Shown here piece after piece: positions 19,175-50,405 of a DNA stretch of 54,108 nt. The first letter of the stretch is position 1. The number at the start of each line of letters is the position of its first letter. Made by a program: the position numbers and the translations under genes. This stretch comes from an uncultured Alphaproteobacteria bacterium (lineage in GTDB: Bacteria > Pseudomonadota > Alphaproteobacteria > Micropepsales > Micropepsaceae): positions 1 to 54,108 of the forward strand of contig CAILUV010000052.1 in NCBI GenBank assembly GCA_903837555.1. Direction: 5' to 3'. Below the pieces are notes generated by a model that was not told the DNA's origin, ran no database searches, and worked only from the letters and a program-made list of their open reading frames with translations.

Positions 19175-20080
19175 TCAAATTGCCATAAGGCCCATTTCAA
19201 CCAGTTGGCGGCTGCTCTGCAGCCGCGCGGAGTTCTGGTCGCGCAGGGTCAGCGCCGGGTTCTGCGCCAGCAACTGGGCGTAGATCTTGTATTCCAAGCC
19301 GTCGGCATAGTGCTCGCCGCGCGCCGCTTCCACCTGCACCCGCTGGTAGAAATCGTCGAGAAATTTGAAATGCAGCAACACCCCTGTCATCTGCGCCATT
19401 TGCATCGGGCTCACCGCATGGGTGCAGTTGGTGAACTGCATGCCGCGCGTCCATTTCACCAGCGGCACTTTACTGATGGTGGGCGGATGCGGCGCAGGCG
19501 ATCCAGAAAAATGGAAGATGCGCTCGCGCACCCCGCCATAGATCTGGATGTGGGGGAACGCATGCACCTGAACCGTGCGATAGGGCGCCGGATCGAACCA
19601 GGGACAGGCCGCCAGCAGCGAATCGCCGGCGCGGTAGCCGACATCATTCAATGGCCGGTCGGCATACATGTCGAGCAGCATGCAGAACATGCCCTGCGCG
19701 CCCAGATGATCGAGATGTGTGCAGACGCGCGTCAGCGGCACGGTCTCGATGCCGGGATAGATCAGCAGCTCGTCGGCATCAACCGTCAGTGTCCAGTGGC
19801 CGCACCCATATTCGTCCAGCAACTGATTCATCCAGGCCATGCCGAAGCCGCTGGCCGCGAAGCTCTGGTCCGCCCTGAAAAGATGCACGTCGGGCTGGGC
19901 CAGCAGGAATTCCAGTGTGCCGTCGACCGAGCCGTTATCGGCCACGAAGAAACGTGACACGCCCAGCCCGCGGTGATGATTCAGATTGTCGGGCAACCGC
20001 AGCGCTTCATTCCGCACCGGCAGGAAGGCGCGAATTTCACCGGGGGTGGACGGGATAGGCCGGCTGTCGAGGCGTCTCAT
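19175..20080 (-). CDS. Glycosyltransferase family 2/92-like
   Basis: 301 residues. The N-terminal part reads IRAFLPVRNEALRLPDNLNH, then FFVADNGSVDGTLEFL and HWTLTVDADELLIYPG: a GT-A fold of the Glyco_tranf_2_4 kind with a nucleotide-binding VDADE motif (about residue 105). No membrane helix is seen. The first Met after the tRNA is at 20080, only 17 bases past the tRNA-His CCA end; this leader has no Shine-Dalgarno. The mRNA start may therefore be made by tRNA 3' processing. Acceptor and donor are unknown. Confidence 0.82.
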   Translation of the reverse strand: MRRLDSRPIPSTPGEIRAFLPVRNEALRLPDNLNHHRGLGVSRFFVADNGSVDGTLEFLLAQPDVHLFRADQSFAASGFGMAWMNQLLDEYGCGHWTLTVDADELLIYPGIETVPLTRVCTHLDHLGAQGMFCMLLDMYADRPLNDVGYRAGDSLLAACPWFDPAPYRTVQVHAFPHIQIYGGVRERIFHFSGSPAPHPPTISKVPLVKWTRGMQFTNCTHAVSPMQMAQMTGVLLHFKFLDDFYQRVQVEAARGEHYADGLEYKIYAQLLAQNPALTLRDQNSARLQSSRQLVEMGLMAI

Positions 20081-20097: not shown

Positions 20098-20174
20098 TGG
20101 TACAGTTGGGTGGGCTCGAACCACCGACCTCCGGTTCCACAAACCGGCGCTCTAACCAACTGAGCTACAACTGC
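20098..20174 (-). tRNA. tRNA-His (anticodon GTG), CCA encoded, no G-1
   Basis: 77 nt on the minus strand. Anticodon stem-loop CCGGT-TTGTGGA-ACCGG gives GTG. Acceptor GCAGTTG pairs with CAACTGT, so pair 1-72 is G-U and position 73 is A. The genomic base at -1 is C, so the G-1 that marks nearly all other tRNA-His is not encoded. A73 without G-1 is the known alphaproteobacterial variant and matches the HisRS type at 12182-13660. Confidence 0.96.
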
Positions 20175-26469: not shown

Positions 26470-28131
26470 ATGGCATCGGGCAAGACATGGAACCGCCGCA
26501 TCGCGCTGGCCGGTGGCGCGGCGCTGGCCGCCACGGGCGGCTATTTCGCGCTGCGAGGCCCTTCCGGCAGCCGCGCGCCGCGTAAGGTTACTGACGCCCG
26601 CACCCTGCTGCGGGGCAATGCGGCGGAGCCCGAGACGCTGGACCCGACGCAATCATCCGGCACCCAGGAAAGCGAGATCATGGGCGATCTGATGATCGGC
26701 CTGACGACTCATGATCCTGCGTGCAAGGCCATCCCGGGCATGGCCACCCATTGGGAGACATCGGGCGACGGCCTGATCTGGACGTTTCATCTGCGCGAAG
26801 CGCTGTGGTCGGATGGCGTGCCGGTGACCGCCGGGGATTTCGTGTTTTCCTGGCAGCGGCTGGTCGATCCGGCTTCGGCGTCCAGCTACGCGTATTTTTT
26901 GCACCTGATAAAGAACGGCGTGGCGATCAGTGCGGGTAAAATGCCGCCCTCGGCGCTGGGGGCCAGGGCCATCGACGCGCGCACCCTGCGCGTGGAGCTG
27001 GAACATCCCGCGCCCTATCTGCTGGAATTGTTCACCCATGGCACGACGTATCCCCTGCCGCGTCATGTGGTAACGGCCAAGGGCAAGGCCTGGGCGCGGC
27101 CCGGCAACTACGTCAGCAACGGCCCCTTCACGCTGAAGCAGTGGATCCCCAACGACTATGTGTTGCTGGAAAAGAATCCGCGCTTCTACGACGCCGCGAA
27201 TGTGGCGCTGGAGCAGGTCTATTTTTACCCCACCAGCGACTATGGCGCGGCGCTGCGGCGCTTCCAGGTCGGCGAGCTTGATTTTCAAGACCGCTACCCC
27301 ACCCAGAAGGTCGACTGGATCCGCAAAAATCTTCCGCAGACCATTGATCCGGTGCCGTCGCTGATCACCGAGATCGTCGGCGTCAATCACAAGCGCGAAC
27401 CGTTCAGCGATGTGCGGGTGCGCGAAGCGATCAACCTGGCGCTGAATCGCGAAGTCATCACCCAGCGCATCCTGCGCAATGGCGAGGTGCCGGCCTATAA
27501 CGTGGTGCCGCCGGGCATCGCCAACTATCAGGGCGGGCTGGCCTATGACTTCAAGGCGCTGAATTACGCCCAGCGCATCGAAAAGGCGCAAAGCCTGATG
27601 CGGGCCGCAGGCTTTGGCGAAAGCAAACGCCTGCGCACCACCTATATGATCCGCAGCACCGCGCCAACCGTGGGCCGGGCCATCGCCGCCGCCATCCAGC
27701 AGATGCTGGCGCAGGTCTATATCGACATCACCATCACTCCCAACGACATGCAGGTCTTCTATCCCGCCATCCAGGAACACAACTTCGACATCGCCCAGGC
27801 GGGATGGGCGGCGGATTTCAGCGACGCGTCCAATTTTCTCGACCTGTTCCGTACCGGCGGCGGCAACAACTGGGGCGAATACAGCAATCCGGCCTTCGAC
27901 GCGGCGCTGGACGGGGCCCAGCGCGAGGCCGATGTGAACCGCCGCAGCGAAAAACTGGCACAGGCCGAAAGCATCTTCCTGAAGGACCATGCCGCCATGC
28001 CGCTGTGGTTCTGGGTCAGCCTCAATCTCACCTGGCCCTATGTGAAGGGCTTGGAAGCCAACGCGCTGGACTATCACCGCTCGCGCTGGATCAGCATCGA
28101 CCAGGCGGCAAGAATCCAGCAGTTCGCATGA
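26470..28131 (+). CDS. oppA: Peptide-type substrate-binding protein (SBP_bac_5), first copy
   Basis: 553 residues. The N-terminus WNRRIALAGGAALAATGGYF has an Arg pair before a hydrophobic core, so Sec, Tat or a membrane anchor are all possible. The mature protein has the SBP_bac_5 hallmarks: GNAAEPETLDPTQSSGTQES, WTFHLREALWSDGVPVTAGD, YVSNGPFTLKQWIPND and KNPRFYD. These proteins capture oligopeptides in the periplasm for Opp permeases. Ribosome site GAAGG before ATG. The next gene is a shorter paralogue joined by ATGA. Confidence 0.92.
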   Translation: MASGKTWNRRIALAGGAALAATGGYFALRGPSGSRAPRKVTDARTLLRGNAAEPETLDPTQSSGTQESEIMGDLMIGLTTHDPACKAIPGMATHWETSGDGLIWTFHLREALWSDGVPVTAGDFVFSWQRLVDPASASSYAYFLHLIKNGVAISAGKMPPSALGARAIDARTLRVELEHPAPYLLELFTHGTTYPLPRHVVTAKGKAWARPGNYVSNGPFTLKQWIPNDYVLLEKNPRFYDAANVALEQVYFYPTSDYGAALRRFQVGELDFQDRYPTQKVDWIRKNLPQTIDPVPSLITEIVGVNHKREPFSDVRVREAINLALNREVITQRILRNGEVPAYNVVPPGIANYQGGLAYDFKALNYAQRIEKAQSLMRAAGFGESKRLRTTYMIRSTAPTVGRAIAAAIQQMLAQVYIDITITPNDMQVFYPAIQEHNFDIAQAGWAADFSDASNFLDLFRTGGGNNWGEYSNPAFDAALDGAQREADVNRRSEKLAQAESIFLKDHAAMPLWFWVSLNLTWPYVKGLEANALDYHRSRWISIDQAARIQQFA

Positions 28132-29639
28132 AGGCCGCGCTTGTTGCCTTTCTTCTGCTGGCACTGCCCGCATCGGCGCAGACGGTGCTCAATCGCGGAA
28201 ACGGACCGGAGCCTGATTCGCTCGATCCCGCCGTCGCCGGCAGCTATGCGGAAACCAACATTCTGGGCGACCTGATGGTCGGCCTGACCACGCTGGACGC
28301 GCGCGGCAAGCCGATTCCTGGTATCGCCGAGCGCTGGGATATTTCCAAAGACGGCATCACCTGGACCTTCCATCTGCGCCAGGCGCAATGGTCCGACGGC
28401 GCGCCCGTGACGGCGCAGGATTTCGTGTCCGGCTGGCGGCGGCTGCTGGACCCCAAGACCGCCTCGCGCACCGCCGCCATGCTGTGGATTCTCAAGAACG
28501 CCCGCGCCGTCAGCACCGGAACGCTGCCGCCCTCGGCGCTGGACGTCAAAGCGGCCAATGCGCGGACGCTGGTGGTGCGGCTGGAAAATCCCGCGCCCTA
28601 TCTGCCAGAGCTGCTCGCCCATCCCAGCGGATCGCCCCTGCCACGCAAAGGTTCTTACAACGGGCCTTATACGCTCAAAAGCTGGACCCCCAACGACCGC
28701 GTCACGCTGGTCAAAAATCCGCGCTTCTACGACGCCAAGTCCGTGAAGATCGACACGGTGCATTACTTTTCGACCCCAGACACGCTGGCAGCGCTGCGGC
28801 GTCTGCGGGCGGGCGAGCTGGACACACAGACCCCCCTGCCGTCCACGCAAGTCGAATGGCTGCGCCAGAACATGCCCAGGGCGCTGAACATCATTCCTGG
28901 CCTGACGCTGAGCTATCTGGCCATGAATGTCCGCGATCCGGCGCTGGCCGACATCCGCGTGCGCCGCGCCATCAACCTTGTCTATGACCGCGAGGCGGTG
29001 GCGCACAAGGTGATGAAGCTGAACGAAATCCCTGCCTATTCCTACGTGCCGCCGCACACCAGCGGCTATCGTGGCGGCCCGGCGCTGGATTTCAAGGCCA
29101 TGCCCTATCCCGCACGCCTGGCAGCGGCCAGACGGCTGATGCAGGACGCGGGCTTTGGCCCCTTCAACAAGCTGCACCTGAGCTATGCGGTGGCGGGCAC
29201 CCCGGACAGCCGGCGGCTGGCCGCGGTGTTTCAGGCGATGGCGCGGCAGATCCATCTCGATGTCGACATCCAGGCATCCGATTTCCAGATCGTGTTGCGC
29301 AACATGCGGATGGGGCAATATCAACTGGCCTATACCGACTGGCTGGCGGATTACAACGACGCCAGCACGTTTCTCGACCTTTTGCGCAAGGGCAATCCGC
29401 GCAACTATGCCGGTTACAACAATCCGAGATTCGATGCCGCCATGACCGCTGCCGAGCGAGAGCCCGACACCGCCAAACGCATGCATCTGATGCAGACAGC
29501 GGAAAGGATCGCGCTGGCGGACATGCCGTGGGTACCGATCCGCTATCGCGCCCTGACCGTGGCGGTGGGACCGCGCGTCGGCGGCTTCATCCCCAATCCC
29601 GGCAATGCCAATCGCAGCCGCTGGCTGTGGCTTCGATAG
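28128..29639 (+). CDS. oppA: Peptide-type substrate-binding protein (SBP_bac_5), second copy
   Basis: 503 residues with a Sec signal peptide (MKAALVAFLLLALPASAQ). It is a paralogue of the gene before it along its whole length (for example WTFHLRQAQWSDGAPVTAQD, GPYTLKSWTPNDRVTLVKNP, DWLADYNDASTFLDLL), but it lacks the stretch between LP and the substrate-closing GPYTL, making it about 50 residues shorter. Start overlaps the previous stop (ATGA). Tandem OppA genes usually widen the range of ligands of one transporter. It converges with the fucosyltransferase-like gene with a 3-base gap. Confidence 0.92.
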   Translation: MKAALVAFLLLALPASAQTVLNRGNGPEPDSLDPAVAGSYAETNILGDLMVGLTTLDARGKPIPGIAERWDISKDGITWTFHLRQAQWSDGAPVTAQDFVSGWRRLLDPKTASRTAAMLWILKNARAVSTGTLPPSALDVKAANARTLVVRLENPAPYLPELLAHPSGSPLPRKGSYNGPYTLKSWTPNDRVTLVKNPRFYDAKSVKIDTVHYFSTPDTLAALRRLRAGELDTQTPLPSTQVEWLRQNMPRALNIIPGLTLSYLAMNVRDPALADIRVRRAINLVYDREAVAHKVMKLNEIPAYSYVPPHTSGYRGGPALDFKAMPYPARLAAARRLMQDAGFGPFNKLHLSYAVAGTPDSRRLAAVFQAMARQIHLDVDIQASDFQIVLRNMRMGQYQLAYTDWLADYNDASTFLDLLRKGNPRNYAGYNNPRFDAAMTAAEREPDTAKRMHLMQTAERIALADMPWVPIRYRALTVAVGPRVGGFIPNPGNANRSRWLWLR

Positions 29640-29642
29640 CCG

Positions 29643-30662
29643 CTAGCCCGGCAGCAGCACGTCCGCATTCCAAGGATCGAATGGCACCAAGGCCTGCGAG
29701 GCGCGATCGGGCCGCATGAAGCTGCCGGCCTTTTCATTCAGCATCGCGGCAGTGAATGAGAACGTGCTGTTGGAAATCGCCAGGTGATCGGCCTGCGACA
29801 GCACATGATGATCAAGACAGAAATCCAGCCGGCCTGCGCCCACCATCACGGCGTCCATCGGATCAAATTCTGAAAAGGCCGCCGTCACGCCCGGATCATC
29901 GCTGGCGACATACAGCACCGGCGCATCCAGTTCGCGCCAGATGGTTTTGAGCCAGCGCGCATACCATTCCACCGGCGCGATCCAGAACCGGCCCTGCCCG
30001 AAATCGCCGCGCCGGATATGCACCGCCACCAGCGTGCGCCCCCGCGCCGTGATCGCCGTCATGGCGGGGCGCAACCAGTCCTGCACCACGGGACGGTGCC
30101 GGAACAGCGCGCGAAAATCCGCGGCGCGGCCCTGCCATGCAGACGTGTGACGACAGAAATAGCCGCTGAGATCACGGTTGGCATAGACCGGCGCATCGCC
30201 GTTCAGCGACGCGAACAGGTCGGCCTGGCTTTCATCCAGCGGCGGATAGGCCGCCGGCGGGAACGGCTCGTCGCAGCCGAACAGGTCACGTCCGATCCAG
30301 TCGAAGCTCTGGGCTTCCAGGCCATGCTGGCGGGCATAGAGTTTCAGGAACGCATATTGCAGCAACTGGTTTGCGAACCGGCCATTGGCGCCCAGCGTGC
30401 GCATCGAGACCGCCGGGCTCGATGTTGCGGGCCTTGGGTTTGGCGGCGCACCGAAGCGCAGACGCGCCGATGCGATGGCTTGCAGGGAAAACGGAATGCC
30501 GTGGCCAGGAACCAGCGCCCCGGCCCGGTCGGCGACGCTCAGCGCTTCGTCAAGCCTGCCGCCATGCAGCAGCATCTGGCCCAACTGCACCAACGCGGCG
30601 AAGTCATTCGGATTCGCGGCCAGCCTGCGCCGCAGTTCCCGCTCCATCGCCTCCTGGCTCAT
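29643..30662 (-). CDS. TPR plus GT11 (alpha-1,2-fucosyltransferase-like) protein
   Basis: 339 residues. Residues about 1-60 are TPR-like helices (LRRRLAANPNDFAALVQLGQ). From about 85 the GT11 fold starts (MRTLGANGRFANQLLQYAF), with the GDP-fucose-binding HIRRGDF motif (about 217-223) and the C-terminal LAISNSTFSFTAAML. GT11 enzymes transfer L-fucose from GDP-fucose to galactose; a GDP-fucose synthase gene lies at 44415-45374. The gene begins 17 bases after the tRNA-Arg CCA end, with GGGGAATGG as ribosome site inside that short leader. Confidence 0.82.
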   Translation of the reverse strand: MSQEAMERELRRRLAANPNDFAALVQLGQMLLHGGRLDEALSVADRAGALVPGHGIPFSLQAIASARLRFGAPPNPRPATSSPAVSMRTLGANGRFANQLLQYAFLKLYARQHGLEAQSFDWIGRDLFGCDEPFPPAAYPPLDESQADLFASLNGDAPVYANRDLSGYFCRHTSAWQGRAADFRALFRHRPVVQDWLRPAMTAITARGRTLVAVHIRRGDFGQGRFWIAPVEWYARWLKTIWRELDAPVLYVASDDPGVTAAFSEFDPMDAVMVGAGRLDFCLDHHVLSQADHLAISNSTFSFTAAMLNEKAGSFMRPDRASQALVPFDPWNADVLLPG

Positions 30663-30679
30663 CCATTCCCCTGCAGCGA

Positions 30680-30756
30680 TGGTGACCCCGGGAGGACTCG
30701 AACCACCGGCCTACGGTTTAGGAAACCGCCGCTCTATCCTGCTGAGCTACGGGGTC
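30680..30756 (-). tRNA. tRNA-Arg (anticodon CCT), CCA encoded
   Basis: 77 nt on the minus strand. Acceptor GACCCCG pairs with CGGGGTC, A73, CCA encoded. Anticodon stem-loop GCGGT-TTCCTAA-ACCGT gives CCT (reads AGG). D and T arms are normal (AGCTCAGCAGGATAGAGC; GGTTCGAGTCC). The GT11-like gene follows 17 bases downstream, the same spacing as at tRNA-His. Confidence 0.95.
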
Positions 30757-30911
30757 ACGCGGAACCTTTTTGCGCATTTGGGTCCGCATTTCCAGATCGA
30801 AACCGTCTTATTTCGCGTCAGGATGGAGCCTTTCGGCGGTCCTGCGCCTTTCCAAAAGCAAGGGGACCAACCCATTGGCGGATCTTTCGTCCGCTATTCA
30901 GGAGAACTTCG

Positions 30912-31307
30912 ATGAAAACCACCCTCAACAATGCCTGCATCTCTGCGCTTCTGTGCGGCGCCGTGATCTTCGCAGCGCCCGCCATCGCCCAGCAGGGTGC
31001 TGCGGGCGTGAGCGGCTCGGCTGGCGCCACCGCCACGGGCGCTGTCAATCCGGCTGCCAGCGCGGGTATCAGCGGTTCGGTGAACTCGCCCGCTGGCGCG
31101 GTCACAGGAGGCGTCAATACGCAGGCGCATGGCGGCCTGAACACCGACACCACCACCAGCATGAGCACCAGCACGCAGACGCCCGCGGCCCGCATGTCGA
31201 GCCGCGCCCGCGCTGCCGCCGACGCTTCGGAAGCCGAGGCCACCCGCCAGCTCAACAGCCAAGCCACGGTGAACGCGCGCGGCACCACCGGCGCGACCAT
31301 TCAGTAG
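30912..31307 (+). CDS. Small Ala/Gly/Thr/Ser-rich exported protein
   Basis: 131 residues. Signal peptide up to APAIAQ (residue about 27), then a low-complexity stretch with repeated G-A-V-N and G-I-S-G-S-V-N like units (for example GAVNPAASAGISGSVNSPAG), a Thr/Ser run (NTDTTTSMSTSTQT) and a basic/acidic helix (ARMSSRARAAADASEAEATR). GGAG 7 bases before ATG supports the start. A strong terminator follows directly. Function unknown; such proteins are common in Alphaproteobacteria as cell-surface or periplasmic components. Bases 30757-30911 contain no gene. Confidence 0.78.
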   Translation: MKTTLNNACISALLCGAVIFAAPAIAQQGAAGVSGSAGATATGAVNPAASAGISGSVNSPAGAVTGGVNTQAHGGLNTDTTTSMSTSTQTPAARMSSRARAAADASEAEATRQLNSQATVNARGTTGATIQ

Positions 31308-41846: not shown

Positions 41847-42949
41847 GCGAAGAATTTTCGACAGATGCCGTTGTCATCGGCGCGGGCGCCGTGGGCCTGG
41901 CGGTGTCGCGCGCCTTAACACTGACGGGGCGCAACGTCGTCATTTTAGAAAAAAACAAAAATATGGGCATGGAGACCAGCGCACGCAACAGCGAGGTTAT
42001 CCATGCCGGGATTTATTACCCGCGAGGTTCGCTGAAGGCAAAATTATGCATCCGCGGAAAAGAACTACTCTACGACTTTTGTGCCAGCCACGGCGTGCCG
42101 CACAAAAAGATCGGCAAGCTGATCGTGGGGCATACAGGCCAGGAAGATCAGCTGGCGGATATCATGCGTGCCACCGCCGACAATGGCGTCACGGACCTTC
42201 GGCCGCTGTCGTCTAGTGAAATGACAAAACTAGAGCCGGCCATCACGGCCAACCAGGGGCTCTTCTCGCCCTCCACTGGCATCATCGACAGTCATCAATA
42301 CATGCTGGCGCTGCTGGGTGACATGACACTAGTGCGCAACGCGGGCGTGAGCCGTATTGCGCGGGTCGGCAATGGCTGGACACTCTCAGTGACTAGCGAC
42401 GGCGAAGACATCGCGCTGGAAACAAACCTACTGGTCAATGCAGCGGGCCTGTGGGCACAGAGTGTGGCGGGACTTACCGAGGGACTAACACATATCCCCC
42501 CCCTTCACCTAGCCAAGGGAAATTATGCCGCCCTATCAGGGAAGTCGCCATTCCATCATCTAGTCTACCCCGTGCCCGAGCCCGGCGGACTGGGCGTGCA
42601 CGTGACGCTCGACATGGGTGGGCGGGCCCGGTTTGGGCCGGATGTGGAGTGGTTGGAGGGCAACGACCCCGCAGCAATCGACTACGCCGTGTCGCCCGGC
42701 GTGACTGCAAAATTTACGCCCCTCATCGAACGCTGGTGGCCAGGCATACGCCAAGACATGCTCACTACGGACTATGCCGGCGTGCGACCAAAGCTTTGCG
42801 GAAAATCTGAACCCAATGCTGATTTTCGTATTGATGGCCCCGCGGTCCACGGCCTGCCCGGATTGGTGAACTTATTTGGCATTGAATCGCCGGGTCTAAC
42901 CGCGTCACTCGCACTGGGCGAATATGTGTCAGGCCTGCTCCAAAATTAA
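41843..42949 (+). CDS. lhgO: L-2-hydroxyglutarate oxidase/dehydrogenase-like FAD enzyme
   Basis: 368 residues. N-terminal VVIGAGAVGLAVSRALTLTG is the FAD-binding GxGxxG loop; ETSARNSEVIHAGIYYPRGS, CIRGKELLYDFCASHGVPHK and the closing PGLVNLFGIESPGLTASLAL match LhgO/YgaF. These oxidise L-2-hydroxyglutarate to 2-oxoglutarate, passing electrons to the membrane quinone pool. Start at 41843 is preferred (GAGG 6 bases upstream and ATGA overlap with recG); an in-frame ATG at 41828 is possible. It carries the AT-richer codon use of the tract. Confidence 0.87.
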   Translation: MSEEFSTDAVVIGAGAVGLAVSRALTLTGRNVVILEKNKNMGMETSARNSEVIHAGIYYPRGSLKAKLCIRGKELLYDFCASHGVPHKKIGKLIVGHTGQEDQLADIMRATADNGVTDLRPLSSSEMTKLEPAITANQGLFSPSTGIIDSHQYMLALLGDMTLVRNAGVSRIARVGNGWTLSVTSDGEDIALETNLLVNAAGLWAQSVAGLTEGLTHIPPLHLAKGNYAALSGKSPFHHLVYPVPEPGGLGVHVTLDMGGRARFGPDVEWLEGNDPAAIDYAVSPGVTAKFTPLIERWWPGIRQDMLTTDYAGVRPKLCGKSEPNADFRIDGPAVHGLPGLVNLFGIESPGLTASLALGEYVSGLLQN

Positions 42950-43014
42950 GCGGCGCTCAGCCAATCAACCCCGCGCCCAACACACCCAGCCAATCTACAA
43001 ATTTCTATCGCCGC

Positions 43015-43028
43015 GGTTATTTATAACC
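43015..43028. promoter_or_regulatory. Palindrome upstream of ugd
   Basis: GGTTAT-TT-ATAACC is a perfect inverted repeat in the 170-base AT-rich gap before ugd, 92 bases from its ATG. It could be an operator. No other gene is seen in the gap; GGGGGA before the ATG is the ribosome site. Confidence 0.35.
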
Positions 43029-43119
43029 CTCTGTTATCGTACGAAAGATTACAGTAAATACCGTCCCTTGAATTCGTGCCCTTTTCACGGCAGAACAAAG
43101 CACTTATCTGGGGGACTGT

Positions 43120-44415
43120 ATGCGGATTGCGATGATCGGGACGGGCTATGTCGGACTTGTTTCCGGGGCCTGCCTGTCAGAATTTGGTCACGAGGTCATT
43201 TGCGTGGACAAAGATCCCGCCAAGATCGCGACCCTCAGGCAGGGCGGCATTCCGATCTACGAACCCGGCCTAGATGAGATTGTCGCGGCCAACGTAAGGT
43301 CTGGAAGACTGTCCTTCACAACAGACCTGAAAGAGGCTGTTTCAAACGCTGAGGTGATTTTCATCGGCGTGGGCACACCCAGCCGCCGCGGGGATGGCCA
43401 CGCCGATCTCACTTACGTCTACGCGGCCGCCGAAGAAATCGCGAAGGCACTGACCGGCTACACCGTCATAGTAACTAAGTCGACAGTGCCAGTTGGCACC
43501 AGCCGCGCGATTGAAAAAATCATCAAGGCGACACGGCCAAGCGCCCAGTTCGACATGGCCTCCAATCCAGAGTTTTTGCGCGAAGGCTCTGCGATCGAAG
43601 ATTTCCGTAGGCCGGACCGAGTAGTCGTCGGCTGCGACACAGAGCGCGCCCGCGACGTTATGCGTGAAGTCTACCGCCCACTCTTCCTTAACGAGACCCC
43701 GATACTATTTACGAGCCGCGAGACCAGCGAGCTTATCAAGTACGCCGCCAATGCCTTCCTCGCCACCAAGATTACCTTCATTAATGAGATGGCAGATATC
43801 TGCGAGAAAGTCGGCGGGAACGTGCAGGATGTCGCGCGCGGCATCGGCCTGGATGGGCGCATCGGAAAGAAGTTTCTTAATGCCGGCCCCGGATACGGGG
43901 GCAGCTGCTTTCCCAAAGATACACTCGCACTCATCAGGACTGCCAGCGAGCTGGGCGCGCCGTCCCGCATCGTCGAAGCCGTGGTAGCCGTCAATGAGAG
44001 ACGAAAACTGGACATGGCTAAAAAGATTGAGGCGGCATTTGGCGGGGTAAAAGGCAAGACCATCGCAGTTCTGGGCCTGACTTTTAAACCAAACACTGAC
44101 GACATGCGCGATGCCCCCAGCCTGGTCATCTTGCCCTACCTGCAAGAAGCCGGCGCCACGATCCGCGCCTTTGACCCTGAGGGACACAAGGAGGCGGCCA
44201 AGCACCTAACCCTCACCTACTGCAGCAATGCCTATGAGGCGCTTACAGGCGCTGATGGAGTTGTCCTTCTGACGGAATGGAACGAGTTTCGTGCACTAGA
44301 TCTTCCACGCGTAAAGGCGGCCCTCAAATTCCCCGTGATGGTAGATTTGCGCAATATCTACAAGCCCACGCAAATGGCAGAGGCTGGATTTCACTATGTG
44401 AGCGTTGGGCGGTAA
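43120..44415 (+). CDS. ugd: UDP-glucose 6-dehydrogenase
   Basis: 431 residues. It oxidises UDP-glucose twice to UDP-glucuronate using NAD. N-terminal RIAMIGTGYVGLVSGACLSE is the NAD loop, VTKSTVPVGTS and SNPEFLREGSAIEDF are family signatures, the catalytic cysteine is Cys263 in GPGYGGSCFPKD, and VLGLTFKPNTDDMRDAPS marks the C-terminal domain. It is translationally coupled to fcl (TAATG). It feeds the epimerase at 45491 with UDP-GlcA. Confidence 0.95.
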   Translation: MRIAMIGTGYVGLVSGACLSEFGHEVICVDKDPAKIATLRQGGIPIYEPGLDEIVAANVRSGRLSFTTDLKEAVSNAEVIFIGVGTPSRRGDGHADLTYVYAAAEEIAKALTGYTVIVTKSTVPVGTSRAIEKIIKATRPSAQFDMASNPEFLREGSAIEDFRRPDRVVVGCDTERARDVMREVYRPLFLNETPILFTSRETSELIKYAANAFLATKITFINEMADICEKVGGNVQDVARGIGLDGRIGKKFLNAGPGYGGSCFPKDTLALIRTASELGAPSRIVEAVVAVNERRKLDMAKKIEAAFGGVKGKTIAVLGLTFKPNTDDMRDAPSLVILPYLQEAGATIRAFDPEGHKEAAKHLTLTYCSNAYEALTGADGVVLLTEWNEFRALDLPRVKAALKFPVMVDLRNIYKPTQMAEAGFHYVSVGR

Positions 44416-45374
44416 TGAGCGGCCCCATTTTCTCACTTTCCGGAAAACGGGTCTGGGTGGCTGGTCATCGCGGCATGGTCGGAAGCGCGCTAGTACGACG
44501 GCTGCAATCCGAAAACTGTGAAATACTTGTAATCAGCCGCGCGGAATTAGATCTGCGCCGTCAAGAACCAGTGGAAGAATGGCTGTCAGCTAACAGGCCA
44601 GACGCAATTTTTCTGGCGGCTGCAAAAGTTGGCGGAATTTTTGCAAACGAATCCTACCCGGCAGAATTTATCCACGACAATCTATCGATTGAAGTCAACA
44701 TCATCGAGGCGGCACGCAAGTTTGGTGTATCAAAAGTTCAGTTTCTTGGCTCGGTATGCATCTACCCCAAGTTGGCACCGCAACCTGTAAAAGAAGAAGC
44801 ACTACTCAGCGGTTTCCTGGAGCCAACAAACCAGTGGTATGCGGTCGCAAAGATCGCAGGGCTAAAAATGGCTCAGGCCTATCGCCGCGAATATGGATGC
44901 GATTTTATATCTGCAATGCCCGCAAACCTTTATGGCCCCGGCGACAATTTCAATCTCGCGGGAGGCCATGTACTGCCAGCACTCCTACGAAAAGCGCATG
45001 AGGCCAAGACAGCCGGCGCCCAGGAAATAGGTATCTGGGGAAGTGGAAAGCCACGCCGAGAATTCCTACACGTAGATGACTGCGCCGATGCGCTTGTCTA
45101 CCTGATGAAGAACTATTCTGGCGAAGACCATATTAATGTCGGCGTCGGCGAAGACATCACAATCCAGGATCTGACCCGTATGGTTTGCGAGACGGTTGGC
45201 TTTAAGGGTGCCATCCGCAACGACACCTCCAAGCCAGACGGCACCCCAGCCAGGCTCATGTCGAACGAAAAACTGATAAGCTTGGGCTGGCAATCCAAGA
45301 TTGGCCTCAGGGAAGGAATTTCGGACACTTATCGCTGGTATCTAGACAATATCAACAATGTGCGGGGCGCCTGA
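44415..45374 (+). CDS. fcl: GDP-L-fucose synthase
   Basis: 319 residues. Converts GDP-4-keto-6-deoxymannose to GDP-L-fucose (epimerase/reductase). VWVAGHRGMVGSALVRRL is the NADP loop. The catalytic set is Ser113 and Cys115 in GSVCIYPK, Tyr142 and Lys146 in NQWYAVAKIAG; the second serine of the usual GSSCIYP is Val here. The enzyme needs GDP-mannose 4,6-dehydratase, whose gene is not in the window. The product suits the GT11-like gene at 29643. ATG overlaps the ugd stop. Confidence 0.93.
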   Translation: MSGPIFSLSGKRVWVAGHRGMVGSALVRRLQSENCEILVISRAELDLRRQEPVEEWLSANRPDAIFLAAAKVGGIFANESYPAEFIHDNLSIEVNIIEAARKFGVSKVQFLGSVCIYPKLAPQPVKEEALLSGFLEPTNQWYAVAKIAGLKMAQAYRREYGCDFISAMPANLYGPGDNFNLAGGHVLPALLRKAHEAKTAGAQEIGIWGSGKPRREFLHVDDCADALVYLMKNYSGEDHINVGVGEDITIQDLTRMVCETVGFKGAIRNDTSKPDGTPARLMSNEKLISLGWQSKIGLREGISDTYRWYLDNINNVRGA

Positions 45375-45490
45375 CGCTTCTTTAGCAACACCTTTGCTAC
45401 CCAAGTTCAGCCTTCGGCCTGCATAAAATCAGTAGTTGACCCCAACATTACCCCAAGCGATCTTCGCTCTGAAGTATTTGAGACGTTTTC

Positions 45491-46462
45491 ATGGGCTTAA
45501 TCCTGGTAACCGGTTCGGCTGGCTTTATTGGCGCCGCTGTCGCCCACGCCCTCTTGGCGCGTGGCGACACCGTTATCGGCGTGGACAATCTGTCAAACTA
45601 TTATGATGTCGCGATGAAGCAGGCCCGCCTGGCTCAACTGACACCACAATCCAATTTTCATTTCCACCAGATCGACATTTCTGACCGCAATGAGATGCTA
45701 AAACTGGGGTCGGACGTCCCCGGCATCGATGGCATCGTGCATTTAGCAGCACAGCCTGGTGTGCGTTACAGCCTCGAAAATCCGTACGCCTATGTCACTG
45801 CCAACGTCATGGGCCAGGTAGTCATGCTGGAGCTGGCGCGGACACTGAGCACGCTAAAGCATTTTGTCTATGCCAGTTCATCATCAGTCTATGGTGCCAA
45901 CACAAAGACACCCTTTACGGTGGGCGATGCGGTGGATCATCCAAACTCGCTCTACGCCGCGACCAAGCGGGCCGATGAACTATTCAGTCATACCTACGCA
46001 CACCTTTATGGCGTCCCATCCACAGGCCTGAGATTTTTTACAGTCTACGGCCCCTGGGGCCGACCCGACATGGCGCCCATCTTGTTTGCCAAAGCAATAT
46101 CAGCAGGCAAACCAATTCAAGTCTTCAATCACGGCGAGATGTGGCGCGACTTCACTTTTATCGACGACATCGTGGACGGCGTTCTGCGCGCCCTGGATAG
46201 ACCAGCAGCCGGAAGTCCCCCGCATGCGATTTACAATCTAGGAAACCATAAATCCGAAAAACTCACCACCTTCATCGCTGAAATTGAAAAGGCCCTTAAT
46301 AAGAAGGCCGTGCTTGAGATGGCGCCGATGCAGCCCGGCGATGTGACCACGACCTACGCCGACATCGCCGCCGCCACACGCGACCTAGGCTTTGATCCCA
46401 AGACACCGATTAGCGTGGGCATCCCAAAATTTGTGGACTGGTTTAGGCAGTACTACTGCTGA
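45491..46462 (+). CDS. UDP-glucuronate 4-epimerase-like SDR
   Basis: 323 residues. LVTGSAGFIGAAVAHALLARGD (NAD loop), GVDNLSNYYDVAMKQARL, VHLAAQPGVRYSLENPYAYV, SSSSVYGANTKTPF, and Tyr-x3-Lys in YAATKRAD are the marks of UDP-glucuronate epimerases (GAE/LpsL group), which make UDP-galacturonate. A neighbouring ugd supplies the substrate. The 116 bases before it hold only a weak TTGACC box at 45436. A decarboxylating or different-sugar epimerase is a less likely alternative. Confidence 0.86.
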   Translation: MGLILVTGSAGFIGAAVAHALLARGDTVIGVDNLSNYYDVAMKQARLAQLTPQSNFHFHQIDISDRNEMLKLGSDVPGIDGIVHLAAQPGVRYSLENPYAYVTANVMGQVVMLELARTLSTLKHFVYASSSSVYGANTKTPFTVGDAVDHPNSLYAATKRADELFSHTYAHLYGVPSTGLRFFTVYGPWGRPDMAPILFAKAISAGKPIQVFNHGEMWRDFTFIDDIVDGVLRALDRPAAGSPPHAIYNLGNHKSEKLTTFIAEIEKALNKKAVLEMAPMQPGDVTTTYADIAAATRDLGFDPKTPISVGIPKFVDWFRQYYC

Positions 46463-46534
46463 AGGCACCTACTGGGCGTAACTCAGTAAGAAAATGGGGC
46501 CTAAACGGCATCCACAGATCAGTTGACTTTCAAC

Positions 46535-47209
46535 TTACCGGTTAAGGTCTGCCAGAAGAATTGAGGCCTGGGGCCAATCGCGCGCAACGCGCGCAGCACC
46601 CGCCGACATGAGCCGGACGCCCATCGCCTCGTCGGCGTGGCCTCCGCCCAAAAATCCCCACACCGTCATGCCCGCGGCTAGTGCTGCGGCGACACCGTGA
46701 ATACTGTCCTCAATTACCAAGCAATTTTCTGGATCCACACGCAGCGCCTTCGCCGCATACAAGAAAATATCAGGTGCGGGCTTGGCCTCCCGCACATGGT
46801 CGGCGGAATAAATGTGCGGCGCGAATAGGTCCCACAGACCAGTGCGGGTCAATTTACGCCGCAGTCCCTCCAGTGAGCCGGAGCTGGCTATAGCTTTAGG
46901 CAGCGTGACCGCCGCAACGGCCTGGGTAGTTCCAGGCACCTGGGTCAGACGCGTGGCCATCTCCTGGCGCAGTCTATCGGACTGGCGGATGACAGCAGAC
47001 ACAGGCCGGCCGAGCTGTTTTCGTCCTTCTGCGTCTATGGCCGCGTGATAGGCGTCTGTGGAAAGTCCCATAAAGCGAGTGAGATAGTCATCACGCTCAA
47101 AGACAAGGCCCAGCTCGCCCAGCATGGCTATCTCAACCTCAAGAGAAATCACTTCGCTGTCGACCAGGACGCCGTCGCAATCAAACAGGACGGCATTGAT
47201 CGTTTTCAT
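46535..47209 (-). CDS. HAD-superfamily phosphatase, beta-phosphoglucomutase-like
   Basis: 224 residues. HAD motif I LFDCDGVLVDSE with nucleophile Asp, motif II IASSGSLEGLRRKL, motif III Lys in REAKPAPDIFLYAAKALRV, and motif IV ENCLVIEDSIHGVAAALAAG. Members dephosphorylate sugar phosphates or other small metabolites, or isomerise beta-glucose 1-phosphate. Specificity is unknown. It lies 29 bases after the aminotransferase on the same strand and converges with the epimerase gene. Confidence 0.9.
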   Translation of the reverse strand: MKTINAVLFDCDGVLVDSEVISLEVEIAMLGELGLVFERDDYLTRFMGLSTDAYHAAIDAEGRKQLGRPVSAVIRQSDRLRQEMATRLTQVPGTTQAVAAVTLPKAIASSGSLEGLRRKLTRTGLWDLFAPHIYSADHVREAKPAPDIFLYAAKALRVDPENCLVIEDSIHGVAAALAAGMTVWGFLGGGHADEAMGVRLMSAGAARVARDWPQASILLADLNR

Positions 47210-47238
47210 TTTAGTCTCTCCGGCGCTCGCCTAGGCTC

Positions 47239-48417
47239 CTAGCCCGCCTTGCGAGATGCCAAGAAGTCACCCATGCGGCCAAGCGCCTTGAGAATATTTT
47301 CGGTCGAGTTGGCGTAGGAGAGGCGGATATAGCCTTCACCCATAATGCCAAAGTCTGGCCCACCGATCAGCGCCACACCGGTCTCGTCCAAAAGGGCATT
47401 GGCCAGCGGCTTGGCAGTCCAGCCCGTGTTCTTCACGTTTGTAAATGCATAGAAGGCGCCCGCCGGAATTATGCAAGAAACCCCAGGCAGTTTGTTCAAT
47501 TCCTCAACGACCACCTTGCGGCGCTTGTCGAACTCAGTGCGCATGTGGGCGACTACATCTTGCGGGCCAGTGAGTGCGGCGAGGCCGGCATATTGGGTCG
47601 GCGCGTTGACGCAGGAGTGCAGGTTCACCGACAGCTTACGGGCATAATTGTAGAGCTTACCCGGCCACACTGCGTAGCCAAGCCGCCAGCCGGTCATCGC
47701 ATAGGTCTTGGACCAGCCATTCAGCAGGATCAGGCGGTCGCGGATCGAGGGGTACTTCAGCAGCGTGACATGCTCCTGCCCGTCATAGATCAGCTGATCG
47801 TATATCTCATCCGACATGATCGCGACCTCGGGCCACTTGTCCATGCCAGCGACGAACTTGTCGACTTCAGCCTTTGGCGTGACGCCGCCAGTTGGATTGG
47901 CTGGCGAGTTAATGATGATCAAGCGGGTTTTATCGCTGATCAGGCCTAACGTTTCCTGCGCAGAGAAGGCAAAGCCATTTTCTTCGCGGATCGGGATCGG
48001 AACGGGCGTGGCGCCGGTATATTCGATCATGGAGCGGTAGATGGGAAAACCAGGATCTGGATACATAATCTCAACGCCCGGCTGTCCGAACATCAGGATC
48101 GACATGAACATGGTGGGCTTACCGCCCGGCATGATCATCACAGTTTCAGGGGAGACTTCCACGCCGTATCGTTTGTGCAAGTCGGCGCTGACCGCCTCAC
48201 GCAGAACCAGAATGCCGTTGGCCGCTGTATAGCCATGGTGGCCGTCCTTGATCGCCTGGATCGCGGCCTCAGAGATATGCTCGGGCGTTCGAAAATCAGG
48301 CTGGCCAATTCCCAGATTAATGATGTCCCTGCCCTGGGCTGCCAATGCATTGGCGCGGGCCAAAACGGCAAAGGCATTTTCCTCGCCGATGCGGTCAAAA
48401 TTGTCGATAGTCTTCAT
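47239..48417 (-). CDS. Class I PLP-dependent aminotransferase
   Basis: 392 residues. ARANALAAQGRDIINLGIGQ near the start, SPANPTGGVTP, the cofactor Asp-Tyr region SDEIYDQLIYDG, and the Schiff-base Lys in NGWSKTYAMTGWRLGY place it in fold type I class I (aspartate/alanine/aromatic group). The GQPDF N-terminus is of the AspC/AlaT-like type in Alphaproteobacteria. Substrate cannot be settled from motifs alone. The 101 bases to cysNC contain no gene. Confidence 0.92.
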   Translation of the reverse strand: MKTIDNFDRIGEENAFAVLARANALAAQGRDIINLGIGQPDFRTPEHISEAAIQAIKDGHHGYTAANGILVLREAVSADLHKRYGVEVSPETVMIMPGGKPTMFMSILMFGQPGVEIMYPDPGFPIYRSMIEYTGATPVPIPIREENGFAFSAQETLGLISDKTRLIIINSPANPTGGVTPKAEVDKFVAGMDKWPEVAIMSDEIYDQLIYDGQEHVTLLKYPSIRDRLILLNGWSKTYAMTGWRLGYAVWPGKLYNYARKLSVNLHSCVNAPTQYAGLAALTGPQDVVAHMRTEFDKRRKVVVEELNKLPGVSCIIPAGAFYAFTNVKNTGWTAKPLANALLDETGVALIGGPDFGIMGEGYIRLSYANSTENILKALGRMGDFLASRKAG

Positions 48418-48518
48418 GGGGTGTGTTCCGGCGGCATTGTCAGAGATGCCAATATAAAGCCATACGCCCTACAAGGCCACAACCCAAAACCCCCAAGCTC
48501 TGGAAGGAAAGCCCGTCC

Positions 48519-50405
48519 TCAGCCCAGATATCCATGCGCGCGCAGATACGCCACGATTGCCTGGGCATGAACTTCCGGGGTGGCCTCCGCCGCCTTAATA
48601 ACCAGATCCGGTTCCTCCGGAGCCTCGTAGGGACTATCCACACCGGTGAAGTTCTTGATCGAACCCGCGCGGGCCTTTTCGTAGAGGCCCTTGGGGTCGC
48701 GCTGCATACAGATTTCAATGGGGGTATCGATAAATACCTCTATGAACTCATCACTGCCAACCAGCTCTCGCGCCATACGGCGCTCGGAGCGGAAGGGTGA
48801 GATGAAGGCAGTCAGGACAATCAGTCCGGCATCTACAAACAATTTTGCTGCCTCGCCCACGCGGCGGATATTTTCTACCCGGTCAGCATTGGTAAAGCCT
48901 AAGTCCTTGTTCAGGCCGTGGCGGACATTGTCACCATCCAGCAAATAGGTGTGCTTGCCCTCTGAGGTGAGCTGCTTTTCCACGAGATTAGCAATGGTGG
49001 ATTTTCCAGAGCCAGATAATCCAGTGAACCACAGGATGACGGGCTTCTGGCCCTTCATCGCGGCCCGGGCCTGCTTGTTCACGTCCAGCGCCTGCCAGTG
49101 AACATTGGTGGCGCGCATCAGCGAAAAATCTATCATACCTGCGCCGACCGTGGCGTTGGTGAAGCGGTCGATCAGGATGAAACCGCCGGTGTCGCGGCTG
49201 TCGCGATAGGGATCGAAAGCCAGCGGCTGGGCCAGCGCGAAATTGCCATAGCCGACTTCATTCAGGGCGAGCGTCTTGCCCGCCAGGTGATCCAGGCTGT
49301 TGACGTCGATCTTGTGCTTCAGGGAGGACATCTGCACCGGAACGGTGGCGGTGCCCAGTTTCAAAAGATACTGCCGGCCCGGCAGCAATTCCTCGTCCGC
49401 CATCCAGAGCAGATGCGCCGCGAACTGGTCAGATACCGCCGGCCGCGCCTGCGGGTCTGCCAGCACGTCGCCGCGCGAGATGTCGACTTCATCGGCCAGG
49501 GTCAAAGTAATGGCGTCGCCGGCCACCGCTTCGTCGCGGTCGCCGTCCATGGTGACGATGCGCGAAACCGTGCTGGTCTTGCCGGACTTAGCGACAGCAA
49601 CCGTGTCGCCCGGCTTGACGCGCCCGCCGGCGATGGTGCCGGAGAAGCCGCGAAAATCCAGGTCGGGACGGTTGACCCATTGCACCGGCAGGCGAAAAGG
49701 GGTGTCCGCCAGCGCCGTATCCACATCCACCGTTTCCAGATGGGCGAGCAGCGCCGAGCCTCTGTACCAGGGGGTTTCCGCGCTTTTCTCAGTCACATTG
49801 ACGCCAAAGCGCGCTGAGATCGGAATGGCAACCTGGGTGGAGAAATTGAGACCGGCGGCGAAGACCTGGAAGTCGGCCACGATCTCATCGAACACCTTTT
49901 GGGAATAATCCATCAGGTCGATCTTGTTCACTGCCAGCACGATGTGCCGGATGCCCAGCAGCGAGGCGATATAGGCGTGGCGGCGGGTCTGGATCAGAAC
50001 GCCCTTGCGCGCATCGATCAGGATGACGGCCAGATCACTGTTCGACGCGCCCGTCGCCATGTTGCGGGTATATTGTTCATGGCCGGGCGTGTCGGCGACG
50101 ATGAATTTACGTTTGTCGGTGGCAAAGAAGCGATAGGCGACATCGATGGTGATGCCCTGCTCGCGTTCCGCTTCCAGTCCGTCCACTAGCAGGGCGAAGT
50201 CAATATCCTCGCCGGTGGTGCCGAACTTCTTGGAATCCTTTTCCAGGCTGGCGAGCGTGTCCTCAAACAGCAATTTCGTGTCGTACAACAAGCGTCCAAT
50301 TAGCGTGGACTTGCCGTCATCGACACTCCCGCAGGTGAGAAAGCGCAGTAGGGATTTCTTTTCCTGCGCGGCGAGAAACTTCTGAAGATCGGTAGGAGCG
50401 TTCAC
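48519..50405 (-). CDS. cysNC: Bifunctional sulfate adenylyltransferase subunit 1 / APS kinase
   Basis: 628 residues, a CysN-CysC fusion (NodQ-like). CysN GTPase part: P-loop [10 protein letters not shown] (25-34), [25 protein letters not shown]. CysC part from about residue 450: [13 protein letters not shown]-loop and [15 protein letters not shown]. With CysD it makes APS at the cost of GTP, then phosphorylates it to PAPS. It starts with GTG sharing a base with the cysD stop (TAGTG). Codon use is AT-richer in the CysC part. PAPS serves sulfate assimilation or sulfation of surface glycans. Confidence 0.96.

Follow-up and report, generated by a model that had tools for sequence, protein, structure and literature searches.

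Why do two glycosyltransferase genes of different families both start exactly 17 bases behind a tRNA gene in one stretch of bacterial DNA? The window, i.e. the whole stretch of DNA that was analysed, is contig C52 of 54,108 bases from a genome (G000) of 2.46 Mb in 101 contigs, and it was compared with a set of 69 genomes of its genus. The initial annotation had explained the repeated layout either by repeated insertion at tRNA 3' ends or by a tRNA-mRNA co-transcript that is preferred for glycosyltransferases. The layout itself could be verified for both pairs, in the case of tRNA-Arg(CCU) by ARAGORN and by an open reading frame that was called as coding; genes were predicted with a home-made, hexamer-based caller for which the present genome served as training set, so starts and small genes are approximate. 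The features concerned are as follows.

19175 to 20080, minus strand: GT2 gene (PF13704) of 301 aa with a Pfam E value of 1.2e-26, its ATG 17 bases 3' of tRNA-His
20098 to 20174, minus strand: tRNA-His(GUG) of the first pair, from the tRNA search
28128 to 29639, plus strand: OppA-like binding protein, a recurrent neighbour of tRNA-Arg; convergent with the GT11 gene, the two stops 3 bases apart
29643 to 30662, minus strand: TPR and GT11-like gene (predicted fucosyltransferase fold) of 339 aa, ATG start, called as coding
29724 to 30137, minus strand: match to Pfam Glyco_transf_11 over aa 176-313, which includes His-Ile-Arg-Arg-Gly-Asp at residues 215-220
30501 to 30650, minus strand: TPR-like region (aa 5-54) of the GT11 protein, from Pfam-type and structure-profile matches
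30663 to 30679, minus strand: spacer of 17 bases between tRNA-Arg and the GT11 gene, minus-strand reading TCGCTGCAGGGGAATGG
30680 to 30756, minus strand: tRNA-Arg(CCU), from ARAGORN, CCA encoded
30912 to 31307, plus strand: conserved small gene (cluster c10), separated from the GT11 gene by tRNA-Arg

This tRNA-Arg is the single CCU one found among the 39 tRNAs of the genome, and an oligopeptide-transporter operon encoding OppB, OppC, a fused OppDF and two OppA proteins lies between it and tRNA-His. The ribosome site quoted for the Arg/GT11 spacer, GGGGAATGG, is indeed present within the 17 bases, where AGGGGA (30667-30672) represents a weak Shine-Dalgarno-like run; no such run was visible on inspection of the tRNA-His/GT2 spacer.

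The identical spacing, which had made the two pairs conspicuous, turned out to carry no meaning beyond chance. Among the orthologous loci, the Arg/GT11 spacers comprise 17 (G000), 12 (G036), 22 (G015) and 22 (G064) bases, with AAGGA before the ATG in the latter three genomes, and the His/GT2 spacers comprise 17, 30 and 37 bases in the genomes with an intact pair. Furthermore, the present genome contains six tRNA-gene pairs with a gap of at most 30 bases, and six draws from the pooled close gaps include at least one equal pair in approximately 52% of cases. Because the spacers vary in orthologues and about every second draw holds an equal gap, we regard the shared value of 17 as a coincidence and rejected it as a signal.

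A GT11 orthologue (72-80% identity) was found in four of the 69 genomes of the genus (G000, G036, G015 and G064), and in all four it is located directly 3' of tRNA-Arg(CCU), at a distance of 12-22 bases. A tree built for 14 genomes from four Opp proteins unites these four in one clade with a support of 100. G016, G018 and G079, which appear as its sister group with a support of only 74 for that grouping, are without the GT11 gene, and the tRNA-Arg site holds content other than GT11 in the other genomes viewed. The GT11 gene is under purifying selection, with dN/dS values of 0.15-0.22 (0.17-0.21 for the GT2 gene) at dS values of 0.7-1.2 among the four genomes with the pair. GT2 orthologues of about 74% identity exist in three of 37 genus genomes searched, the own genome included, and additionally in G064. 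In G036, the GT2 gene is found approximately 1.7 kb from tRNA-His with a predicted gene of 233 codons in between. Hence, the loss of synteny in close relatives, which the initial annotation had named as evidence against its proposal, applies to the His/GT2 pair in one of four genomes, but the Arg/GT11 pair is intact in four of four. The tRNA-His/GT2 pair looks like another such case that arose independently, i.e. a clade-limited gain.

Homologues of the GT11 protein outside this clade were found in other surroundings. For the weaker ones within the genus (47% identity in G071, 36% in G005), the loci contain no tRNA. Five more distant homologues on named contigs (47-50% identity) likewise showed no tRNA in front, with upstream DNA of up to 10 kb in three of them; for L128 (146 bases in front of the match) and L129 (none), a tRNA in front is possible. 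The pairing appears, as far as visible, to be a trait of the locus and not of the enzyme family. One of the five distant homologues has a tRNA-Ala 1.8 kb 3' of the gene.

The GT11-like label given to the protein proved correct, since its PF01531 match reaches 36.1 bits against a curated Pfam cut-off of 23.9, accompanied by TPR-like matches at the N-terminus. It contains His-x-Arg-Arg-x-Asp, which we take to be the GT11 motif, and the residues H215, R217 and D220 are invariant between the window protein and five GT11 domains encoded by other genomes within the class; D220 is replaced by Asn in G071, one of nine closer GT11 homologues. The structure model of the protein (pLDDT 81.6, low at residues 219-227 and 321-339) resembles most closely FUT8 (best Z 16.3; 4.0 Å over 236 residues), followed by NodZ (Z 15.3; 3.3 Å over 224 residues) and POFUT1 (Z 15.0). 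The likeness to these three folds spans aa 76-329 with Z values of 14-16, and profile matches to solved structures assign the N-terminus to TPR proteins and the C-terminus to FUT8. According to these predictions, the window protein is a TPR-fucosyltransferase-type protein and would be a GDP-sugar-dependent enzyme of the fucosyltransferase type, which may act on a cell-surface or secreted glycan.

How could such a gene have reached its place behind tRNA-Arg? A comparison of the two flanks of tRNA genes bears on this question for the genus in general. When the first neighbours of at least 80 aa were compared at 30 loci each, 98 of 435 genome pairs shared a homologous gene 5' of tRNA-Arg, and 10 of 406 pairs shared one on the 3' side; for tRNA-His, the corresponding values are 108 of 435 and 4 of 325. 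The same trend was obtained with all anticodons from seven genomes, with a homologous 5' neighbour in 318 of 782 and a homologous 3' neighbour in 116 of 724 comparisons. Counted per anticodon, 31 favour conservation of the 5' side, 6 favour the 3' side and 6 show no difference (sign test, p = 4e-5). A better-conserved 3' side is mostly found for anticodons with housekeeping partners, e.g. Trp, Tyr, Gly(UCC), Leu(UAG) and Pro(UGG), and the conservation of the 5' side could partly result from tRNAs that trail conserved operons.

Moreover, the 1476 genes near tRNAs include 12 distinct tyrosine integrase-like genes. They correspond to 13 rows, since L387 and L403 represent one gene; these two rows and L436 are weak matches (E about 1e-6 to 7e-6). 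Eleven of the 12 are situated 3' of a tRNA within at most 400 bases, nine in the same orientation as the tRNA, in a search that is biased toward the 3'-end kind because both query integrases came from tRNA 3' ends. In the present genome, a tyrosine integrase gene (L012:47-1336) is found 161 bases 3' of tRNA-Gly(GCC), and a related integrase occurs 3' of tRNA-Gly(GCC) in G036 (L179). Approximately 90 bases downstream of tRNA-Arg in G025 (L078), 25 bases of its 3' end occur again as an exact copy, which resembles the scar of an attachment site. The faster turnover of the 3' side and the mostly 3' location of integrases, together with this repeat, mark tRNA 3' ends as places of gene turnover in the genus.

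Against this background, we consider it fairly probable that the Arg/GT11 pair arose when a single gene was captured at the tRNA-Arg(CCU) 3' end, and that this gene was kept and is expressed by read-through. In such a scenario, a gene for a TPR-fucosyltransferase-like protein would have arrived directly 3' of tRNA-Arg in the common ancestor of the four sampled species. Accessory genes of this genus usually arrive on the 3' side of tRNAs, in general probably via tRNA-targeting integrases. The captured GT11 gene would then have been retained, most likely without an own promoter.

The locus itself has kept no trace of such an event, which counts against an insertion. With at most one mismatch allowed, the tRNA itself is the sole match of the tRNA-Arg 3' end CCGGGGTCACCA in the window, and no direct repeat of this end was found within 1.5 kb at the locus. 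No integrase was detected with the two query integrases at tRNA-Arg(CCU) or tRNA-His, in loci reaching approximately 1.5-2 kb to each side, and the base composition in 2-kb windows shows no break at the GT11 gene, which likewise argues against a foreign insertion. Repeated insertion at tRNA 3' ends, as proposed by the initial annotation, is thus backed as a general trait of the genus by the 3' turnover and the integrases, but neither of the two tRNAs is accompanied by a repeat or an integrase. The G+C content is approximately 0.64 over most of the window and falls to 0.52-0.59 at about positions 42000-50000 and 1-2000.

Two further candidates for insertion marks were examined and dropped. For tRNA-His, two imperfect 13-base matches (30580 and 35924) are located on the other strand at least 10 kb off; three matches, the tRNA itself included, were reached in two of 100 shuffles, and we took them as chance. 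An integrase-type swap of the tRNA 3' half as source of the two tRNA-Arg sequence classes within the GT11 clade was set aside because the differences include base 7 near the 5' end and one in the 3' acceptor stem. These two changes would presumably pair with each other, as with ordinary drift.

Among the alternatives, a local rearrangement survives best, even if we consider it rather unlikely. It assumes that an inversion of tRNA-Arg placed its 3' end against a gene that already existed between OppA and the tRNA, so that no insertion would be needed. By eye from the maps (loci L130-L145 and L256-L275), at least one OppA is found on one side of tRNA-Arg in 27 of the 39 genomes viewed, and the orientation of the tRNA relative to the backbone is readable in 34 of the 39. 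In 27 of these 34, the tRNA faces away from the Opp side (seven of the 27 have no remaining OppA and were oriented by other backbone genes), and it is flipped in the remaining seven, namely in all four GT11 genomes and in G079, G080 and G072. Because the tRNA is flipped in the same clade that carries GT11, the inversion may indeed have made the adjacency, and over approximately 45 bases, the 5' flank is similar by eye in the GT11 clade and G079. In all seven flipped genomes, the slot between OppA and the tRNA 3' end holds at least one predicted gene, which is GT11 in four of them. However, no genome viewed with a forward tRNA carries GT11 between OppA and the tRNA, and other flipped genomes hold different genes in the slot, a GMC oxidoreductase in G079 and, in G080, a protein of 277 aa whose PEP-CTERM match stays below the threshold. 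The flipped tRNA-Arg thus occurs in more than one lineage, with slot genes that differ between lineages. Exceptions from the general picture are G080 with a further gene 5' of the tRNA, and the forward genomes G013, G014, G022 and G023 with a gene between OppA and the tRNA 5' end.

A second alternative starts from the glycosyltransferases themselves, whose genes might be specifically favoured 3' of tRNAs since the coupling to tRNA transcription would give growth-linked expression. We surveyed 302 tRNAs from seven genomes, of which nine had no downstream gene that could be read and 17 had a further tRNA next to them on that side; a same-strand gene starts 3' within at most 30 bases in 23 cases and within at most 60 bases in 33. 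These 33 close genes were typed by Pfam, except for the G036 GT11 gene (BLASTP). Five of them, four being distinct, encode glycosyltransferases. Three are the GT11 and GT2 genes of the present genome and the counterpart of this GT11 gene in G036; the other two belong to PF00535 and follow tRNA-Phe (G070) and tRNA-Cys (G016), with uncertain starts (7 or 46 bases and 35 to 53 bases, respectively). As control served 909 other genes in tRNA loci, five of which are GT2-like and none GT11-like (phmmer/HMM). The five control genes (L034:1859-2581, L196:171-998, L434:92-799, L423:3138-3800 and L250:3-551) are 64-87% identical and all located upstream of tRNA-Ser(GGA) in five genomes, so the control covers a single family. 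The comparison of three GT2 genes among 33 with five among 909 yields a Fisher p of 0.002, and 0.014 without the discovery genome (2/26 vs. 4/782), with control searches that were home-made, restricted to GT2 and GT11 and less sensitive than the Pfam typing of the tight set. Pfam applied to 150 of the 909 control genes showed no glycosyltransferase among the 25 commonest of 161 families, while families with one or two members may hide some. On the enzyme side, with 41 PF01531 or PF13704 loci from 190 genomes of the class (for PF13704 the best 30 loci), one of the 39 loci beyond the two pairs of the window starts 3' of a tRNA on the same strand. This is L294 (G202) from another family of the class, where a two-domain gene for GT2 and a methyltransferase begins 29 bases 3' of tRNA-Met.

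These numbers give a hint of a glycosyltransferase excess 3' of tRNAs, and a specific preference nevertheless appears improbable to us. The counts are tiny and partly post hoc, the detection differs between the tight set and the control, and the start codons in G070 and G016 are uncertain. Moreover, 28 of the 33 close genes belong to other classes, among them SecE (5), PALP (4), trigger factor (3), EF-hand (2), NDUS4 (2), EF-Tu and an integrase; nine further ones show family matches or transporter folds, and two without a Pfam match were counted separately. An EF-hand gene starts 17-22 bases 3' of tRNA-Val(UAC) in the present genome (L010:932-1423) and in G036 (L186:2250-2750). In addition, GT11 homologues elsewhere have no tRNA in front where upstream DNA is present, and accessory genes in general could yield an equal excess. 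The scan for enrichment that the initial annotation had suggested returned a small, nominal excess (p about 0.014 without the discovery genome), but a preferred tRNA-glycosyltransferase co-transcript could not be established. Judged by titles and abstract openings, searches of the literature gave no report on glycosyltransferases preferred 3' of tRNAs. The plain reading is that glycosyltransferases represent common accessory cargo. A farther-reaching version, in which tRNA genes of this genus act as ready-made promoters for new glycosyltransferase genes, so that those arriving within tens of bases of a tRNA 3' end are used at once, by read-through and tRNA processing, and kept more often than other genes, with the repeated flip of tRNA-Arg as part of the process, seems quite improbable. 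Finally, a pure chance adjacency without any hot spot would profit from the fact that close genes are common (the 23 of 302 tRNAs mentioned above), but it is very improbable given the much higher turnover on the 3' side compared with the 5' side and the fact that the pair was kept in four of four genomes at dS values of 0.7-1.2.

The Arg/GT11 locus displays the layout of a tRNA-mRNA dicistron, i.e. the same strand, a short spacer and no terminator-like site between the two genes; no terminator-like site was found in the entire region 29500-31000, and a consensus scan of this region found no promoter-like site either, also none for the tRNA. Because a spacer of 12-22 bases that includes a ribosome site and lacks a terminator leaves little room for a separate promoter, the mRNA most likely stems from read-through combined with processing of the tRNA 3' end. 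Judged from the sequence, the GT11 gene is thus likely expressed by read-through from the tRNA promoter, and the processing of the tRNA 3' end would release a free mRNA with a 12-22-base leader that carries the ribosome site. In the secG-leuU study, mRNA-tRNA transcripts were reportedly processed by RNase P. The gene orders tRNA-Gly/EF-Tu and tRNA-Trp/SecE were also seen in the surveyed genomes. In E. coli, RNase E processes tRNA precursors, as stated in excerpts of PMC3985628.

Taken together, the Arg/GT11 pair is real and tidy, and it probably has an ordinary explanation as a fresh example of an already known phenomenon. It provides a clade-dated case of how an accessory gene that settles at the end of a tRNA may come to be expressed although it brought no promoter along. 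The measure of 3' turnover versus 5' stability and the hint on glycosyltransferases together offer a test that can be scaled up; if the excess were true, tRNA read-through would be one way of renewing surface chemistry.

Regarding known systems, the window protein has PF01531, the His-x-Arg-Arg-x-Asp sequence and a fucosyltransferase-like fold in common with GT11 and the alpha-fucosyltransferases FUT8, NodZ and POFUT1, whereas it carries N-terminal TPR repeats and is a putative fucosyltransferase as to sugar donor and acceptor. Integration hot spots and genomic islands at tRNA 3' ends are treated in a review (PMC2704930, in excerpt), and in Methylophilaceae, tRNAs such as tRNA-Arg(cct) mark the borders of islands (PMC10872708, in excerpt). 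Compared with islands as described in these excerpts, the present locus consists of a single gene with no flanking repeat, no integrase at the tRNA and no break in composition, but it shares with them a clade-restricted accessory gene 3' of a tRNA, and integrases occur at other tRNA 3' ends of the genus. In layout, the locus also resembles bacterial transcripts that combine tRNA and mRNA, such as secG-leuU or the orders tRNA-Gly/EF-Tu and tRNA-Trp/SecE, with which the Arg/GT11 pair agrees in strand, short spacer and absence of a terminator-like site. In contrast to these, an accessory glycosyltransferase takes the place of the housekeeping gene in the Arg/GT11 pair, for which co-transcription is a prediction.
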